A program made the position numbers and the translations under genes. Positions 1-10,598 of a DNA stretch of 64,000 nt are shown in pieces. The notes under the pieces were generated by a model that did no database searches, was not told the origin of the DNA, and worked only from the letters and a program-made list of their open reading frames with translations. The DNA comes from Deltaproteobacteria bacterium (lineage in GTDB: Bacteria; Desulfobacterota; Desulfobulbia; Desulfobulbales; Desulfobulbaceae): the NCBI GenBank assembly GCA_024280455.1, contig JAJRQC010000069.1, positions 1 to 64,000 on the forward strand, written 5' to 3'. Positions within the stretch are counted from its first letter, which is position 1; every line of letters starts with the position of its first letter.

Positions 1-3000
1 CTTGACGACACTCTTGTTGAGGCCGATGAAACCGTTATCGTGACCCTGTCCGCAATCACTTCCGGTGATGCCGATCTCACCGTAGACACCACTCCGGCTA
101 CGGTTACGATAACCGACAACGACACGGCCACGGTTTCCGTAGCCGCAACAGCCGCACCGGCTGAACCTGTCACTGATGGATCATTTACTGTCACTTTTAC
201 TGATAAATCCAGTACCGATACTGTTGTCGATTACACTGTTGATACAACCAGTACGGCTATAAGTGGAACTGATTACACGGCGTTGAGCGGAAGTGTAACT
301 GTTCCGGCCAATAGTTTGACCGCATTGATTCCAGTTCCGATTATTGATGATTCGATAGTGGAAGGTGCTGAAACGTTATGGCTTACGTTATCAGGAACAG
401 ATAATTCTCAGATTACAATTGATCCGGTTCTGGATAATGCCGGGGTGAGTTTTGGTGATAATGACAGTGCGATCGTCACCATTGAAGATGTGTCCGTGCT
501 GGAAGACGGCATCATGCAGTTTACCGCTACCGTTGATCATGCGGTTTCCGGTGGATTCACTGTTGATGCTTTGTTTACCGATGGTCTGGCCACAGGTGGT
601 TCACCCCTGGCCGCAGGCCTTGATTATGATAACACCGTTCAAACACTGATATTTACTGGAAATGCACTGGAAACGCAAAGTTTCACCGTACCGCTGAATA
701 ATGATACAGTTATTGAACCGGCTGAAGATGTTATGGTTTATCTTGACAATCTGGTGCCGGCAGAGGCTCCAGTAGCTATGTTTGATCTCAGTGATACAGC
801 CACCGGAACCATCCTCAACGACGAACATCTGATTACCATGAGTGCAGGAGCCAACGGCACCGTGGATACGGCTTATGGTACTGCTCCGTCGGTGAACAAC
901 GGCAGTACAACGGTTCAGATTGATCATGGCGACACACCCTCGTTTAATATGACCCCTGATTCCTGTTATCATATTGATGATGTTCAGGTAAATGGTACAT
1001 CAATTGGAGCCGTTTCCAGTTATACTTTTCCTTCAGTGGTCACTGAAGATCAGACTATTAATTCTGATTTTGCTCTTACCCAGTACACCATTACCGCGAC
1101 CGTTCTTGGAAATAACGGAACCCTGGATCCTTCTCAGACCGTTGGCTGTGGAAGCAGCGGGTATGTCTATACTGCCCAGTCCTTACCCGGTTATCATATA
1201 ACCTGGCTCAAGGTCAATGGGGTTGATGTGTCTGCTGCCGCCGGTCAGGCAAGTTATTCCTACACGTTCAGTGGTGCAATAACAGGCGACCAGACCATTG
1301 AGGCGGCTTTTACCCAGATCTTTACGATTATAGAGGAATCTCCTTTTGGAAGTGTGGTTCCGGATGGTGATAAGGATAATTTTTATGAGGTCGATTACGG
1401 GAGTAATTTGACTTTGACCGTCAGCTCTTTTGTCCCATGTCCTGATGGGCTCACCCATAATGGCAAAGATCACCATATCTCCGATATAATTGTTGACGGC
1501 ACCTCGGTCGCCGGAGTTCAGGGTGCAGGCCTGACAACGTATTCCTATGATTTTATCAATATTACATCTGAACATACCATTGAGATTCTGTTCACCAGCT
1601 TTGTGGATGTCACCGTTCACCCGAACGGTCATACAGAGAGTCCTGTCATTACCACCACGGAATCCATTGAAGTGGAGGCCCATGCCGACCAGCCGATCAC
1701 GGCAGTGCCGGATGCCGGTTTTCATGTCAGCGGGATAGAGGTTGACGCTGCCTCTGTCGGGACGCCGGAGCTGTACACCTTTGCGGATATGTTTGATGAT
1801 GATCACAGTTATGAAGTCTGGTTCGCCATTGACACGTTTACCCTGGAACCGGTTTCCCGATTCTCTACAATCTTTGACACCTCGGCAGAGAGCGTGGTTG
1901 CTACGACCCGGCAGGTGGACTGGGGGACGGACAGCTCGTTTTATGTCAACTTGAATGATGTTGATCATGCGGTAATGGGGGTACTGGTGGATAATATCAG
2001 CTATCCCATCCCTGCAGCCGGTGGTTCCGTCACCTATGCAGATTTTGTTCTGACAAATACAGCAGATGATTACCTGGAGGTCCGATTTGCAAATATTGTC
2101 GTCGGTCACCGGCTGGAGATCCTTGATTATGACACCAGCCCCATATCCGACATCCCTCTTGATGCCAAGTTACGGCCAAAGCCTGCGTCTCTGATGTTTG
2201 TTCTTGATGATTCGGGCAGCATGGACTGGGAGTTTATTGTTCCTGGTAACGGATTGTATAATTGGCGTTATTACGTTTACAGTTATCCGGCTGTGCCGGA
2301 GGCAAGAGCGTATTCAGATAACAGCCTGCAGGCAAATGGTGAGCAGGACCAATGGCGTTCCCAGTGGTCGGCCGTAAACAAAATGTTTTATAATCCTGAG
2401 GTGGAATTTACTCCATGGCCGACCTTTACCGGCAGCAGTCCAAGTTCCAATCTGCCGGCAGCATCCGGTTCCATAGCCGGCCAGGCAGATGGACTGTCTC
2501 ATGCCAATATCTACCGGCCACGTTATCATCCCTGGTATAGTCAGGATTGTACGGAGGCGCTGAATAAAGCGGTTGGTGCCACTCCGGATGACACCGGCGT
2601 CTGTGTCAATACCGAAACCTTTGACATGGATGCTTCTTTTCTTTCATTGTCAGGGAGTACCGATGACCATGGCGACACTGTTCTTACGGCCACGACTGTA
2701 AGTGTAAATAACAGTTATTTAGCTGAGTTGGAATCGGCTGGTGATCATGATGTTTTTGAAATAGAGCTTACCAGCTCCGGTGACTTACTTGTAAGAATGC
2801 TCTCTACATCTCAGTGTACTGACACCATGGCAAGGATACTCGACAGCACTGGTTCCGAATACCGCAGGACTGAATATGCCGACTCCTGGACAGACCCGTA
2901 TAATGACGGCAACTGGTATGACGATGATTGTCAGGGCGCCGCCTACTGTGATTTCAGTTGTGGTGGGTATGATCGAAGCCCTTATATCCTGTTGACTAAT

Positions 3001-6000
3001 GTTCCTGCCGGAACGTATTACATTGACGTAAGAGGTTGGGGCAATGAAACCGGAACCTATACTCTTGATCTGGGGTTCACCGGCACAAGTACCTCTTTTC
3101 CCGATCCTGCAACATCTTCACCTGGTATTATCAATGCCCATTACTATACTTGGGAAGATACCAACGGGAACAATATCATAGATTATGTTGACAGTAACAG
3201 TAATGGCCAGCTGGATATTGATGAAACAGTTAATGAGAATATCTGGCTGGTTAATCTGACAGACCCCTTAGAATATTACAGGATTAACGACAACAGTCAG
3301 GTGGTAAGTGGGGCAAATTTAGTGAAGATTGATGCGGCATCCGTACCGGCGGCAGTCAGGACGTACGCTTCGCCAACAGATGCTGATGTCTGGGTTAAAG
3401 AGCGCCAGAACTGGGCTGACTGGTTTTCCTATTATCGGAAGCGTACCTATTCAGCCACTGCAGCCGTTGCCCAGGTCATTGACCGTATGAGTGATGTCGA
3501 AGTTGGTTTCCACACCATCAATTATAATGGAGGTGGTTGGAAAAACGGAGGGTATGGAATCAGTCAATCGCTCTTGCCTGTCAACGTGGCAGGTTCAGGC
3601 AATGAGACCAATACGCTGCTTGAACTCCTGTACGGGTTTCAGGTAGATGCATATGGTACCCCCCTGCGCAGGGGAGTGGAGGATGTCGGAATATATTATG
3701 ACGATACCGATACCTCGACCGGTGGCATTGCCAATAATTCCGGTTCTTCTTTCGGTACACCCATTCAATCTCCTTACCATGCCCAGCAGGATGGTGATGA
3801 GTGCAAGCAGGTCTTTACCATAGCGATGACCGACGGGTACTGGAATGGCTGGGATCCTGCGGTCGGCAATGCCGATGGTGATAATGGTGCTCCTTATGCC
3901 GATACCTTCACCAATACTTTGGCAGATGTGGCCATGGATTTCTTTGAACGTGATCTATCGAGCCTGGAGGATCTTGTCCCTGACGGTATCAACAATCATC
4001 AGCACATGGTGACCTATACCGTCGCCTTTGGTGTGAATGGGACGTTAAATCCTGACGACTATGACCTGAACAATGCGATTTATCCAACCTGGCCAAATCC
4101 CACATCAAGTGATGCGGCCAAGGTGGATGATTTGTGGCATGCTGCGGTTGACGGTCATGGAAAGTATATGAATGCTGCAAGGCCTGATGAACTTGTCGCC
4201 TCGCTGCTTGATATTATGAATGATATCGGCAGCAGGATCGGTTCCGGCGCCTCGGTTTCGGTCAATGGCGATGAGATGTATGAGTCGGTCAACGGTCAGG
4301 TCCGAATGTTCCAGACCACCTATAACAGCGGCGACTGGCACGGTGATCTCCAGGCCTACCAGATCGATACCACAACCGGTGAGGTCATGGTCAACAATCC
4401 GGTCTGGTCGGCTGAAGAGAAGATGGCTTCCCGGTTAAATGGTTCCGGTCACACGAGCAGGATTATTGCTACCTATAACGGTTCCACCGGTGTCCCCTTT
4501 CGCTGGGATGACGGCGCTGGGACAAACTATCTCTCCGTTGTCCAGCAGAAGCAGTTGCTGCCCTTTTTCTCCCAGACGTTGACCGGTGTGGATATGCTGA
4601 ATTATCTGCGCGGTGATAAAACCAACGAGGGAGAGTTCCGGGGCCGTGATGCCGCCCATCCGTTGGGTGATTTCATACACTCTCTGGCCCGCTATGAAGA
4701 TGGTTTTCTCTATGTCGGCGGCAACGACGGCATGCTTCATGCCTTTTATGCCGATGATACGAACGGTGGAGAAGAGTTGTTTGCCTATATCCCTTCAGCA
4801 GTCTTTCCCCAGTTACGTGAACTGGCGGATCCACTGTATGACCACAAGTTTTATGTCGATAATACGCCCTTTACCAAGGAGATCGGGGCCACGACTCTGC
4901 TTGTTGGTGGCCTGGGTAAAGGTGGAACCGGCTATTACTGTCTTGATATCAGTAATCCAACAACGATTACCTCGGAAACTGAGCTTGCCGATCGGGTGAA
5001 GTGGGAATTTCCGGCTTCACCTCCTGCTACTCTACTGACCGGTACAACATTTACCTTTTCCAGTGGAACCGGCACCGGTGGTAACGATGAGATTAGAGAC
5101 AGCGCAACACAATTTACATCCGCCAACGGTTTTGATGTTGGCAAACGAATTGCCGTAGTCGGCGCCAACTTTAATGACGGTACGATCAGCGGCAGTAACG
5201 ATGGTATCTATGAGATCAAGGCTGTGGCAGCTGATGGCAGTGCTATAGAACTGGATCCAGGTAATTTGATTGATACCTATGGTGATGGTGAGGATATAAT
5301 TATCACCCAGTCCGTAAGTGATACCGGCCTTGGATATTCGTTCAGTCGTGCTGTTCTTGTCAAAAGCCGGGATTTGAGCATTAATGCCGGAACCGACCTT
5401 GAAGGCTATGTTGTGATTTTCGGCAACGGCTACGGCAGTGAAGATGGGACGGCTAGTCTTTACATCCTGAACCCGTCTGATGGGACTTTACTGAAAAAGA
5501 TTGAAACCAATGTCGGGCCGTTTAATGGTATGTCCACGCCCAAAGTCATTGACATGGATAATGATCTACAGGTCGATTATGTGTATGCCGGTGATCTGCT
5601 CGGCAATATGTGGAAGTTTGATTTAACGGCCACTGACTATAATGACTGGCAGGTTGCGTATTGTGATAATGCGGACCTTATGGGTGTAGACCACTGTAAG
5701 GATACGGTGACCGGAATGATTCCGCAGCCCTTATTCGCCGGGCTGGCTGATCAGGCCATTACCGGAGCACCTGACATTATGTTTCATGACAGTGGGCTCG
5801 GTTATATGGTTCTGTTCGGAACCGGTAAGTATCTCGGTGAGCCTGATTTGTCCTCGATGGATATTCAATCGTTGTATGGCATATGGGATTGGGCACCGGA
5901 TGCTCTTGATGAAGGATATAATGGCGTTCGGGTAGACACCGCAGCCACTCCTTCTGTTGCGACCCTGTCAAACTGGCCCGAAACCAATATTGACGGCGAG

Positions 6001-6915
6001 GCCACTCATACCCTTTTAGAACAGGTCGCCTGGGTTGAAGGAAAACTGACCGAAGATACCGATGGTGACGGTGCGCTGGATGTTGATGAGGATGTGAACA
6101 ATAACGGCGTGCTCGATACCGGTGAAGATCTTGATGGTGATGGCCACCTGGATGTGGATGAAGACACAAACGATAATGGTTTGATAGATACGTATTCCTA
6201 TTATCGAATTCCGTCTAATTTCACGGGGGACTGGTCCACTGAGCGTACAGATGCTTTGCCTGCATCCCACCGTTTTTATAATGAGGATATTAATGGAGAT
6301 GGTGTGTTGGATCAATGGGACCGGATTCCGGCCGCCAATGTAGGCTGGTTTTTTGACTTACCGGGAAAGATTGATCTTGATGGGGACGGTCAGGATAACG
6401 ACAAGGATACATTAATTGATGAGGATGATGATGGTGATGGTATAATTGATGAGCGGATGCCTGGAGAGCGCGTTGTGAATGACGCTATTCTCCGTGACGG
6501 CAAGATTATTTTTCTCTCCTTTGGTGTCACTGGAACCCGTTGTAATGCCGGAGCCTACTCCTTTGTCAATGAGCGAAATCCGAACACCGGCGGCATGCTG
6601 CAGCAACCGGCATTTGACATCAATGGTGATGGAGAAGTGGATTCAAGTGATTATGTTTATACGCAGGTTCCTTATGACGTCAATGGGGATGGAGTTATTG
6701 ATGAGGACGATGTCGTGCATGGTATTCCAGGGGACAAGTCGTTTGAAGGACGCCTGTTTAACCCCGCAATCCTCCGTGAAGATAATGACCCTTCAAAAAT
6801 TGTTGATCCTGATCCGGAAGAAACGAAATATTTCAGTTCTTCACAGGGTGGAATTCAAACGATCGAAGAATCTGCGGAAAGACGCGGTATCTATTTCTGG
6901 CAACAGGTTGAGTAG
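1..6915 (+). CDS. Giant PilY1-like adhesin/pilus-tip protein, 5' partial
   Basis: The reading frame is open from the first base, so the true start and signal peptide lie upstream; about 2300 residues are visible. In order: Calx-beta-like repeats (about bases 1-830), repeated beta modules resembling divergent InlB-type repeats (about 830-2100), a von Willebrand A domain with MIDAS motif FVLDDSGSM (about 2190-2230), a PPC-like beta domain apparently inserted in it (about 2620-3100), the rest of the VWA region (TIAMTDGYWNGWDP, about 3810), then a PilC/PilY1 beta-propeller (VGGNDGMLHAFYADD near 4710; DMDNDLQVDYVYAGDLLGN near 5560). The C-terminus carries many Asp-rich calcium-type loops (DTDGDGALDVDEDVNNNG, DINGDGEVDSSD; 6055-6720). 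PilY1 proteins sit at type IV pilus tips and act in adhesion and calcium-controlled retraction; that role here is inferred from family. No pilin genes are in view. Confidence 0.9.
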   Translation, partial: LDDTLVEADETVIVTLSAITSGDADLTVDTTPATVTITDNDTATVSVAATAAPAEPVTDGSFTVTFTDKSSTDTVVDYTVDTTSTAISGTDYTALSGSVTVPANSLTALIPVPIIDDSIVEGAETLWLTLSGTDNSQITIDPVLDNAGVSFGDNDSAIVTIEDVSVLEDGIMQFTATVDHAVSGGFTVDALFTDGLATGGSPLAAGLDYDNTVQTLIFTGNALETQSFTVPLNNDTVIEPAEDVMVYLDNLVPAEAPVAMFDLSDTATGTILNDEHLITMSAGANGTVDTAYGTAPSVNNGSTTVQIDHGDTPSFNMTPDSCYHIDDVQVNGTSIGAVSSYTFPSVVTEDQTINSDFALTQYTITATVLGNNGTLDPSQTVGCGSSGYVYTAQSLPGYHITWLKVNGVDVSAAAGQASYSYTFSGAITGDQTIEAAFTQIFTIIEESPFGSVVPDGDKDNFYEVDYGSNLTLTVSSFVPCPDGLTHNGKDHHISDIIVDGTSVAGVQGAGLTTYSYDFINITSEHTIEILFTSFVDVTVHPNGHTESPVITTTESIEVEAHADQPITAVPDAGFHVSGIEVDAASVGTPELYTFADMFDDDHSYEVWFAIDTFTLEPVSRFSTIFDTSAESVVATTRQVDWGTDSSFYVNLNDVDHAVMGVLVDNISYPIPAAGGSVTYADFVLTNTADDYLEVRFANIVVGHRLEILDYDTSPISDIPLDAKLRPKPASLMFVLDDSGSMDWEFIVPGNGLYNWRYYVYSYPAVPEARAYSDNSLQANGEQDQWRSQWSAVNKMFYNPEVEFTPWPTFTGSSPSSNLPAASGSIAGQADGLSHANIYRPRYHPWYSQDCTEALNKAVGATPDDTGVCVNTETFDMDASFLSLSGSTDDHGDTVLTATTVSVNNSYLAELESAGDHDVFEIELTSSGDLLVRMLSTSQCTDTMARILDSTGSEYRRTEYADSWTDPYNDGNWYDDDCQGAAYCDFSCGGYDRSPYILLTNVPAGTYYIDVRGWGNETGTYTLDLGFTGTSTSFPDPATSSPGIINAHYYTWEDTNGNNIIDYVDSNSNGQLDIDETVNENIWLVNLTDPLEYYRINDNSQVVSGANLVKIDAASVPAAVRTYASPTDADVWVKERQNWADWFSYYRKRTYSATAAVAQVIDRMSDVEVGFHTINYNGGGWKNGGYGISQSLLPVNVAGSGNETNTLLELLYGFQVDAYGTPLRRGVEDVGIYYDDTDTSTGGIANNSGSSFGTPIQSPYHAQQDGDECKQVFTIAMTDGYWNGWDPAVGNADGDNGAPYADTFTNTLADVAMDFFERDLSSLEDLVPDGINNHQHMVTYTVAFGVNGTLNPDDYDLNNAIYPTWPNPTSSDAAKVDDLWHAAVDGHGKYMNAARPDELVASLLDIMNDIGSRIGSGASVSVNGDEMYESVNGQVRMFQTTYNSGDWHGDLQAYQIDTTTGEVMVNNPVWSAEEKMASRLNGSGHTSRIIATYNGSTGVPFRWDDGAGTNYLSVVQQKQLLPFFSQTLTGVDMLNYLRGDKTNEGEFRGRDAAHPLGDFIHSLARYEDGFLYVGGNDGMLHAFYADDTNGGEELFAYIPSAVFPQLRELADPLYDHKFYVDNTPFTKEIGATTLLVGGLGKGGTGYYCLDISNPTTITSETELADRVKWEFPASPPATLLTGTTFTFSSGTGTGGNDEIRDSATQFTSANGFDVGKRIAVVGANFNDGTISGSNDGIYEIKAVAADGSAIELDPGNLIDTYGDGEDIIITQSVSDTGLGYSFSRAVLVKSRDLSINAGTDLEGYVVIFGNGYGSEDGTASLYILNPSDGTLLKKIETNVGPFNGMSTPKVIDMDNDLQVDYVYAGDLLGNMWKFDLTATDYNDWQVAYCDNADLMGVDHCKDTVTGMIPQPLFAGLADQAITGAPDIMFHDSGLGYMVLFGTGKYLGEPDLSSMDIQSLYGIWDWAPDALDEGYNGVRVDTAATPSVATLSNWPETNIDGEATHTLLEQVAWVEGKLTEDTDGDGALDVDEDVNNNGVLDTGEDLDGDGHLDVDEDTNDNGLIDTYSYYRIPSNFTGDWSTERTDALPASHRFYNEDINGDGVLDQWDRIPAANVGWFFDLPGKIDLDGDGQDNDKDTLIDEDDDGDGIIDERMPGERVVNDAILRDGKIIFLSFGVTGTRCNAGAYSFVNERNPNTGGMLQQPAFDINGDGEVDSSDYVYTQVPYDVNGDGVIDEDDVVHGIPGDKSFEGRLFNPAILREDNDPSKIVDPDPEETKYFSSSQGGIQTIEESAERRGIYFWQQVE

Positions 6916-6939: not shown

Positions 6940-7356
6940 GTGAAGAAGATGTGGAACATTTTGTTCGTGTTGCTCTTTGTGACCGCCAGTGTCTTTCTGG
7001 CCGGTATACAGGAAAGGGTATATGCCAGGGGAGAAGAGGGTAACTCCTTGAGAACAATGAATCAGAATGGCTGGGTGTACCGGGTGGTTGACTCTACAAC
7101 CCTTGTGATTGATGACATGACGTATCGATTGTCTCCCTCGGCAAGTTTTTTCGATAGCGATAACAATGCTATTGGTTTGTCAGCGTTGCGGCGGAAGGTG
7201 TTCGTCGCTTTTTCGCAGGTAAACGGTGTGATTAGCGAGGTCCATATTCTTCCGCAGCAGGATGAGCGGCATGGGCCGGGAGCTCTGCCGTCTGCCACTA
7301 AACCAACGGAAAATACGGGAAGTGTTATACTGGAAAATGGTGTCTGGAAAAATTAA
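6940..7356 (+). CDS. Small secreted protein of unknown function
   Basis: 138 residues with a GTG start; a gaggtg ribosome site lies just upstream and the gene starts 24 bases after the PilY1-like gene. Residues 1-30 form a signal peptide (basic MKKMW, then a long Val/Leu/Phe stretch, then a small-residue cleavage region before ARGEEG). The mature part has a compact beta-rich stretch (YRVVDSTTLVIDDMTYRLS) and a C-terminal tail rich in Pro, Gly and Thr. I do not recognise the family. The close spacing and the terminator right after it suggest co-transcription with the pilus protein and a role at the cell envelope, but no function can be assigned. Confidence 0.75.
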   Translation: MKKMWNILFVLLFVTASVFLAGIQERVYARGEEGNSLRTMNQNGWVYRVVDSTTLVIDDMTYRLSPSASFFDSDNNAIGLSALRRKVFVAFSQVNGVISEVHILPQQDERHGPGALPSATKPTENTGSVILENGVWKN

Positions 7357-7478: not shown

Positions 7479-7642
7479 TTAATTTAAGACCGATACGCCA
7501 TATTTGCAGAACAGAGTATCTGTTGTGACGACTTTGAGGTTGTGAAGTTCCGCTGTTGCAATGATGAACCTGTCACATGGGTCAGCGTGAATGGGGGCCA
7601 GCGCTACAGCTCGAATACAGACGGGCAGGTCAAAGGGGAAGT
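7479..7642 (-). pseudogene. PIN-domain (VapC-type) toxin remnant, 3' end only
   Basis: Reading the minus strand from base 7642 to a TAA at 7479-7481 gives the C-terminal third of a PIN ribonuclease: the diagnostic stretch HADPCDRFIIATA followed by LKVVTTDTLFCKYGV. The same motif (HADPADRMIVATA) occurs in the intact PIN toxin at 10203-10598. Nothing PIN-like continues upstream of about 7642, where a repeat with inverted ends begins, so the gene looks truncated by that element. The N-terminal catalytic Asp region is missing, so it cannot encode an active toxin. Confidence 0.75.
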
Positions 7643-7827
7643 ATGGGGTCATGTACGATTTTAACAGCTTGTTTGAGCTGAAAATGGGTCGCAGTAGATA
7701 TTTTTTAATCTGGTGCAGTCCTATGGGGGATTTGACCCGGTATATCCTATACTCATTTCGCCATCAACATTTGTTGTGTAAAGCATCAGCTCTTTCGAAG
7801 AGTTTTTTTCTTGACATTTGACCCCAT
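7643..7827. repeat. Short element with imperfect inverted ends
   Basis: About 185 bases bounded by atggggtcatgt (7643-7654) and acatttgaccccat (7814-7827), which are imperfect inverted copies of each other; a related internal sequence (gggggatttgaccc) lies near 7725-7738. No transposase is encoded. It abuts the truncated PIN gene, so it may be a small non-autonomous insertion that broke it. Confidence 0.5.
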
Positions 7828-9972: not shown

Positions 9973-10206
9973 ATGGAAAACGTCGTTTCTAAATCTCGAT
10001 TTAAACCCCAGGCTTTAAAGTATTTCAGGCAGGTACAGGAAGGTGGTCAGGAATTGATTATAACTGAGTATTCAAAGCCGGTTTTGAAGATTGTGCCTTA
10101 CAGGCGACAATCGGCAGATATTCTGAAAGAACTGGAAGGAACGGTGAAAAGATTTGATAATCCCTGTGAACCGGTTGCTGACGATGAATGGGATGTCTTG
10201 AAATGA
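9973..10206 (+). CDS. Phd/YefM-type antitoxin
   Basis: 77 residues starting at ATG 9973. The N-terminal half matches the Phd/YefM fold seen in type II antitoxins (KPQALKYFRQVQEGGQELII, then TEYSKPVLKIVPY); the short acidic tail (PVADDEWDVL) is the part expected to wrap the toxin. Its stop overlaps the start of the PIN toxin in an ATGA arrangement, typical of coupled toxin-antitoxin pairs. It likely represses its own promoter. An in-frame start 33 bases upstream is possible but less conserved in appearance. Confidence 0.88.
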   Translation: MENVVSKSRFKPQALKYFRQVQEGGQELIITEYSKPVLKIVPYRRQSADILKELEGTVKRFDNPCEPVADDEWDVLK

Positions 10207-10598
10207 TCGTACTCGACACCCATGTGTGGATTTGGTGGCTGAGTAACAAGGAAAAATTATCTGACCATGCCCTGCAGCATATTGAACAGGCAGTGGTTGA
10301 ATCATCGCTGGTCCTCTCTTCAATCAGTACCTGGGAAATCGCGATGTTGGTTGAAAAAAACAGACTTGATCTTTCCATCAATGTCCGCGACTGGATACGA
10401 AAAACAGAAGGGTTGTCATTTGTTCAGTTTGTACCAATGGATAACACCATCCTTTTGCGATCAGTTGAACTCCCTGGAAAATTTCATGCGGACCCTGCAG
10501 ACCGTATGATTGTGGCCACTGCATTAACAATGGGGCTGCCGATTGTAACAAAAAATAAAAAAATTCAGTCCTATTCACCTGTTGAAACCATATGGTGA
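10203..10598 (+). CDS. PIN-domain ribonuclease toxin (VapC-like)
   Basis: 131 residues. PIN-domain toxins cut RNA using a cluster of acidic residues and metal. Visible are the N-terminal MIVLDTHVWIWW (first catalytic Asp), a conserved SSISTWEIAML segment (middle Glu) and HADPADRMIVATALTMGLPI with the C-terminal Asp residues, then TKNKKIQSYSPVETIW. Translationally coupled to the antitoxin by a four-base overlap. Length is normal and no key acidic residue is missing, so it should be active. A related toxin survives as a fragment at 7479-7642. Confidence 0.9.
   Translation: MIVLDTHVWIWWLSNKEKLSDHALQHIEQAVVESSLVLSSISTWEIAMLVEKNRLDLSINVRDWIRKTEGLSFVQFVPMDNTILLRSVELPGKFHADPADRMIVATALTMGLPIVTKNKKIQSYSPVETIW

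Follow-up and report, generated by a model that had tools for sequence, protein, structure and literature searches.

The 64,000-nucleotide stretch of DNA analyzed here (the window) opens inside a pilY1-type gene, which fills its first 6915 bases as one uninterrupted frame (Table 1). The frame is open at the 5′ side; base 1 of the window coincides with base 1 of a contig (C76, in an assembly of 173 contigs), so the truncation is an assembly end. A preliminary description, made from the sequence and its reading frames, had given the protein more than 2300 residues and called it far beyond an ordinary PilY1. Both statements hold, the frame being cut only by the contig start. Among 158 genomes drawn from the phylum (its own included), 62 gave a PilY1 match, and the 73 distinct frames have a median length of 1100 residues; the window frame is the longest and the next has 1963, some frames possibly being cut by contig ends. 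Yet this length is not unique, as directed searches turned up ten other aligned relatives with frames of 2267–3301 residues; one of the longer frames, with 2664, is from Desulfonema magnum. A homologue of the small protein encoded directly 3′ of the gene follows pilY1 in six other loci (tblastn), and neither Pfam nor NCBIfam gives a match to it at E 1; we take it to stand at the place of pilY2, using that label by position only. Further downstream lie genes for sulfate adenylyltransferase (467 bits) and aroB (385 bits), both over cut-off. Two other places in the window concern PIN domains: a 57-residue frame (7479–7652, minus strand) whose match is to the latter half of the domain, and a full PIN-domain gene (10188–10598, plus strand).

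Table 1. Features of the pilY1-type gene and its 3′ neighbor, in window positions
Feature	Position	Strand	Basis
pilY1-type gene, 5′ part missing	1–6915	+	2304 residues; open frame, PF05567 E 4.6e-41, contig placement
Calx-beta part-unit	about 1–126	+	start of window protein matches C23 unit, 56% over 79 columns
Two Calx-beta units (163–462, 460–822)	163–822	+	Pfam, over cut-off
InlB B-repeat-like stalk, residues 275–700	823–2100	+	Flg_new_2, below cut-off
VWA strand 1 with MIDAS DxSxS (residues 736–740)	2170–2226	+	model strand, alignment
Insertion (~390 residues) separating VWA strand 1 from helix 1	2227–3387	+	model secondary structure; VIA-align ranges
PPC/collagen-binding-like beta-sandwich (about residues 879–1029) in VWA insertion	2635–3087	+	Foldseek; profile of nine PPC-like inserts, own included
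Single loop motif DSNSNGQLD in VWA insertion	3190–3216	+	motif scan
VWA remainder with MIDAS Thr1220 and Asp1278	3388–4236	+	model, VIA-align, alignment
C-terminal PilY1 propeller domain with insertions	4264–6912	+	model pLDDT 84, pTM 0.86; Foldseek
Propeller loop HAF-FAY, 14 residues in window protein	4741–4785	+	alignment; 20–24 EDxDGDGxLD units in relatives
Beta-rich module, ~90 residues, within propeller	5005–5337	+	segment-length comparison, model
Conserved PilY1 calcium site DMDNDLQVD	5551–5577	+	residue-by-residue alignment with 3hx6
Four tandem 12-residue calcium-loop units	6052–6198	+	motif scan
Five further loop motifs (residues 2096, 2125, 2142, 2206, 2226)	6286–6702	+	motif scan
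Small protein (138 residues), signal-like start	6940–7356	+	directly 3′ of pilY1; tblastn

The C-terminal part of the protein matches PF05567 at 141.5 bits, against a Pfam cut-off of 28.1. An AlphaFold model of this propeller has a pLDDT of 83.9 and a pTM of 0.86, and its top two Foldseek matches are both chains of 3hx6, the P. aeruginosa PilY1 structure (E 1.6e-27 and 6.5e-26). For comparison we aligned 79 PilY1s, namely 75 of the best 80 of 526 loci plus four added proteins from the window and other genomes; L061, L097, L101, L107 and L110 were left out, as no more than 90% of the match fell within the frame. The pattern of the calcium site seen in 3hx6 is retained in 73 of the 76 rows with letters there. 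For the AlphaFold alignments the eligible relatives were thinned by choice, to 49 of 68 in one and to 54 of 72 in the other. The beta-rich module within the propeller is well modelled, and the segment that holds it runs to 88–114 residues in 11 of the 79 proteins versus 8–62 in the 65 other covering rows. Its best Pfam match (residues 1664–1790) is P22_Tail-4, which at E 0.078 we do not believe.

An RGD tripeptide (window 4609–4617, residues 1537–1539) aligns with the RGD of P. aeruginosa PilY1, reported as an integrin-binding motif. Among the 78 rows with letters at this place, 42 have RGD and 72 have R-G. Such wide retention of R-G in PilY1s of mostly environmental genomes bears on how the motif is read, and suggests a structural role.

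The VWA region had been described as split by a PPC-like domain. Its AlphaFold model has a mean pLDDT of 82, with the first helix of the VWA remainder starting near residue 1130, and the MIDAS is complete across the insertion (D736, S738, S740, T1220 and D1278, the first motif being DxSGS). The same five residues, D, S, S, T and D, occur in 71 of the 79 aligned proteins; in seven of the other eight the frame is cut ahead of the first motif, and in L048 the Thr is replaced by Ser. VIA-align gave Z scores of 13.9–15.6 in the 50 rows shown, largely to VWA-type domains, and among those no more than one Z below the best are VWA adhesins of other pilus tips (Mfa5, S. sanguinis PilB and SpaC) as well as unrelated VWA proteins. 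Only 170–214 residues are aligned over model ranges spanning about 33–756, which argues for an interrupted VWA. For the insert, Foldseek paired its predicted model with a Bacillus collagenase PPC domain and with collagen-binding domains from clostridial collagenase, with TMt values of 0.61–0.78 in the top 20 (5sv5, the best by E, 0.72 at 3.2e-5; 2o8o_A and 1nqd_A, 0.78). By sequence the insert scores 15.4 bits against PPC (PF04151), below the cut-off of 25.9 (E 0.034); we therefore call it PPC-like by fold rather than a member of that family. The model and the fold search thus support the described arrangement, a VWA fold interrupted by ~390 residues that hold a predicted PPC/collagen-binding-like beta-sandwich, and the part that falls short is membership of PPC by the Pfam cut-off.

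Toward the N-terminus, the Calx-beta domains named in the preliminary description are present, as two units over the Pfam cut-off and a part-unit at the very start. The InlB-like repeats named with them are weak in this protein: Flg_new_2 reaches E 0.0033 and 17.8 bits, against a cut-off of 23.6. We scanned 21 stalks with Pfam (those of the window protein, C23 and G034, and 18 of the 19 listed), and found Calx-beta in nine, the MopE metal-binding motif (PF11617) in seven, the InlB B-repeat in four, and Big_9 and Cadherin_5 in two each. In that scan the window's own stalk shows Calx-beta alone.

Elsewhere in the genome a search with an E threshold of 0.001 gives a single further Calx-beta match, located on contig C23, where its frame continues past the contig end. 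This frame has, read by eye, a hydrophobic start ending AYCA, and upstream of it lie, in order, genes for GspH/FimT, two N_methyl pilins and PilX_N, with an NtrC-type regulator further upstream; the PilV-like pilin scores 49.5 bits against a cut-off of 52.2. Most likely, then, the missing N-terminus is on C23, behind fimT-pilW-pilV-pilX. The C23 frame breaks inside a Calx-beta repeat, and a 43-base repeat common to the ends of C23 and C76 (shared 25-mers, C76 99 to 141) is a plausible reason for the assembly break. The last 77 residues of C23 and the first 78 of C76 are 56% identical over 79 columns, as adjacent Calx-beta units would be. No exact DNA overlap of the two contig ends was found, and we infer the linkage across a gap that is unread. 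When the C23 frame is taken together with that of C76, the complete protein probably has ~2500 residues or more. In G034 and G005 the same gene order is contiguous, with pilX directly 5′ of pilY1. The architecture of the window protein recurs in G034 within a single complete frame (2664 residues) and in G011 within one frame of 2585 residues that is itself open at its contig start. On the opposite strand of C23 (L024 8455–9164), upstream of the pilin genes and between the NtrC-type regulator and a frame that by eye resembles a histidine kinase, lie genes for a DUF6364 protein and for a protein with a PIN domain; the two may form a toxin-antitoxin pair.

Type IV pilus genes are thus found both as this minor-pilin operon and, elsewhere in the genome, as PilB (751 bits) and two copies of PilT (461 and 355 bits), all over curated cut-offs. 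A PilQ-like secretin stays below its own (208 bits against 284). Next to the PilQ-like gene there is a second PilB-like frame (contig C150, 94033–95712) with one in-frame TGA. Given the PF05567 propeller, the calcium site of the solved PilY1, the complete MIDAS, the minor-pilin operon and the PilB and PilT genes, the window protein is a genuine PilY1. Of the large calcium-stiffened tip adhesin originally proposed, the large PilY1-type adhesin is borne out by this same evidence. Calcium stiffening is a separate matter, taken up with the loops below.

Sequence identities across the operon vary in an uneven way. With G034, of another family, the window genome shares 80% in the PilY1 core, 76% in PilW, 66% in PilX, 66% in FimT and 64% in PilV; with G005, of the same genus, the figures are 78%, 59%, 63%, 38% and 66%. 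PilR is 76% identical to that of G005 and absent from the stretch of G034 examined. Pilin and pilY1 genes of A. baumannii are described as behaving as a cassette (PMC10374093, in excerpt). The closer match of core, PilW, PilX and FimT to the other family, with PilV slightly the opposite way, is weak evidence compatible with exchange of a pilin/pilY1 cassette here as well.

The VWA insertion is a recurrent feature. Six of the 79 rows are cut before the site (L047, L052, L055, L056, L063 and L084); in the 73 that cover it, 33 have an insert of 153–358 residues and 40 have 16–67 residues. The large inserts fall into 10 PPC-like and 23 golvesin-like ones, and none matches both groups at the site when whole proteins are searched with our profiles (1e-3). 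Since groups were assigned by hand before the profiles were built (from nine PPC-like and 21 golvesin-like members), the agreement of 30 of the 33 with their own profile is built in, and only G034, G018 and G033 were new to the profiles. Pfam, run on 30 of the 33, found Golvesin_C in 21 and PPC in three, and at 0.01 neither PPC nor any other family in the window's insert as cut for the alignment. Searched in isolation, inserts cross-match the two profiles, the best case being L037 against the golvesin profile at 3.9e-7; PPC-like and golvesin-like inserts may hence be of a distant common fold. Three proteins (L039, L040 and L051) combine a golvesin-like insert at the VWA with PPC-like matches in the stalk. 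The VWA has another such site, flanked by the motifs RQN and GTPL: in six proteins it measures 212–227 residues, compared with a median of 79, and golvesin matches fall within it. By eye, the LSN-YYR insert of G033 is PKD-like. PilY1 is, across this alignment, a conserved core with insertion hot spots, and the inserts differ from lineage to lineage.

The preliminary description counted ten or so calcium loops near the C-terminus. The motif D.[DN].[DN]G..[DEN] does match ten times, nine times in residues 2019–2234 and once at 1064. Shuffling the whole protein gave a mean of 0.13 matches and a maximum of 2 (500 shuffles), and shuffling residues 1991–2260 a mean of 0.095 and a maximum of 2 (2000 shuffles). 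The tandem units follow the pattern EDx[DN]x[DN]Gx[LI]Dxx. No family, those of thrombospondin type 3, dockerin and EF-hand included, matched residues 1991–2200 at E 1 or better, in a search whose HMMER filters drop most weak matches; EF-hand_1 appeared at E 0.33, in residues 1044–1160 only.

Taken together, these data very probably describe a PilY1 tip adhesin of a type IVa pilus, with modular inserts, in an uncultured Desulfobulbaceae-related bacterium. In such a protein the propeller would cap the minor-pilin complex and prime the pilus, while both the Calx-beta/InlB-like stalk and the VWA, PPC-like domain included, would face outward. As the VWA would face outward and the PPC-like domain is placed next to the MIDAS, this domain might supply or present ligand specificity; golvesin-like domains would take its place in other lineages. 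Calcium raises the mechanical stability of P. aeruginosa PilY1 (PMC11891296, in excerpt). By analogy, the loops may stiffen the tip adhesin, binding environmental calcium and so strengthening the propeller against retraction force, as reported for that protein.

A first alternative is that the loop clusters bear no load, being acidic, disordered tandem repeats prone to slippage, either neutral spacers or just tolerated in propeller loops. The HAF-FAY loop of the propeller favors this reading. It has 11–23 residues in 75 of the 77 covering rows, but holds 24 units in G005 and HyVt-437, which count as one case because their cores are 99.9% identical, and 20 in G022 (outside the 79). It holds none in G011, whose core is ~90% identical to those of its array-bearing relatives. 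The DNA of the array repeats with a period of 36/39, in keeping with this reading. The 303-residue array of G005 gave only DUF6802 (E 0.12) and no solved relative at 0.01. In the tree, G005, HyVt-437, G011 and G022 form one clade with support 100. A range of 0 versus 20–24 units among genes so similar in core points to gain or loss of the array fairly recently, in a direction that the inner order of the clade (support 44) leaves unset. In the window protein, the four-unit cluster has AlphaFold block means of about 48–59 in pLDDT, and a further loop, at 2130–2141, lies below 50; the low value of the cluster too would fit disordered spacers, although we treat it as neutral because the model was made without calcium. 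Against mere spacers, inspection by eye shows conserved Asp/Asn ligand positions and a mostly conserved DG turn, with variable residues between them, and units stay in a register of 12–13 residues. We consider a spacer role possible but rather unlikely. Genes with and without a 20–24-unit array at ~90% core identity constitute a natural experiment on calcium loops and tip mechanics.

The loops could instead serve mainly to sense calcium, and so to decide between extension and retraction of the pilus, rather than to stiffen it. The calcium site in the P. aeruginosa propeller is reported to control extension and retraction (Orans 2010, as cited in the excerpted text of PMC13190605), and that site is intact in the window protein. 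The extra loops, however, lie elsewhere in the propeller, and the segments that hold them are shorter and mostly free of the motif in most aligned PilY1s, which nevertheless keep the site. A sensor is an unlikely main role for the loops, if one to be taken seriously.

Two further alternatives concern the protein as a whole and fare much worse than the tip-adhesin reading. Calx-beta, VWA and calcium-binding content are shared with LapA (PMC7616799, in excerpt), and would suit a stand-alone giant surface adhesin of that kind that is no pilus protein; this is very improbable, given the PilY1 propeller at the C-terminus, the probable 5′ end in a minor-pilin operon, and the absence of RTX families from the Pfam matches at E 1 or better. 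The start of the contig inside the gene, in a repeat, raises the suspicion of an assembly artefact joining unrelated genes, but we reject fused genes or a join as extremely improbable, since the same run of core domains occurs in frames of G034, G011, G005, G022 and HyVt-437, homology is continuous across the core domain borders, and neither was found in what was examined, the C23–C76 gap being unread.

A wider reading can be entertained, if doubtfully. Desulfobacterota PilY1 would be a general module acceptor, a conserved core with at least five insertion points; at one of these, beside the MIDAS, different ligand-binding beta-sandwiches would be exchanged, and another, in a propeller loop, has the array of 0 to 24 calcium loops in genes ~90% identical. 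The array would then act as a spring, set by calcium and tunable in length, that lies in the force path when the pilus retracts, and the insert would be an exchangeable head passing its load directly to the MIDAS.

Modular N-termini and VWA insertions in PilY1 and ComC are already published. In the open-licence literature, we found nothing linking PilY1 with pre-peptidase or thrombospondin type 3 domains, golvesin with the pilus, or Calx-beta with type IV pili in Desulfobulbaceae and related taxa; in searches of that literature for PilY1 with Calx-beta, the excerpts mention Calx-beta for LapA only (PMC7616799). For sulfate reducers living in partnership with methane-oxidising archaea, an adhesin role of PilY1 has been proposed (PMC10553843, in excerpt).

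Of the known systems, P. aeruginosa PilY1 (3hx6; PF05567) is like the window protein in its C-terminal propeller with an EF-hand-like calcium site, in its VWA with MIDAS and in its minor-pilin operon. The window protein is about twice as long, and differs in its Calx-beta/InlB-like stalk, in the PPC-like domain inside the VWA, and in a propeller domain that adds a beta module and nine calcium loops. LapA-type adhesins have Calx-beta, VWA and RTX (excerpts of PMC7616799), whereas here Calx-beta and VWA are carried on a pilus-tip propeller. A. baumannii ComC likewise has an insertion into the VWA scaffold, called an interchangeable tool head; that insertion is a finger-like protrusion (residues 166–256, deleted there; PMC10374093, in excerpt), in contrast to the PPC-like or golvesin-like inserts of 153–358 residues in the PilY1s aligned here. 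For the published idea of pilus tips as interchangeable tools, the present set offers named, foldable modules in uncultured relatives of sulfate reducers. In the myxobacterial PilY1 classes, too, the propeller is conserved and the N-termini are diversified; some variants have a VWA and some are long. The paper on these classes states that, in the published PilY1s it compiled, no conserved domains beyond vWFA and DUF4114 had been identified (PMC13190605, in excerpt). Compared with these, the set analyzed here adds Calx-beta, InlB-like, PPC-like and golvesin-like modules, and arrays of calcium loops.
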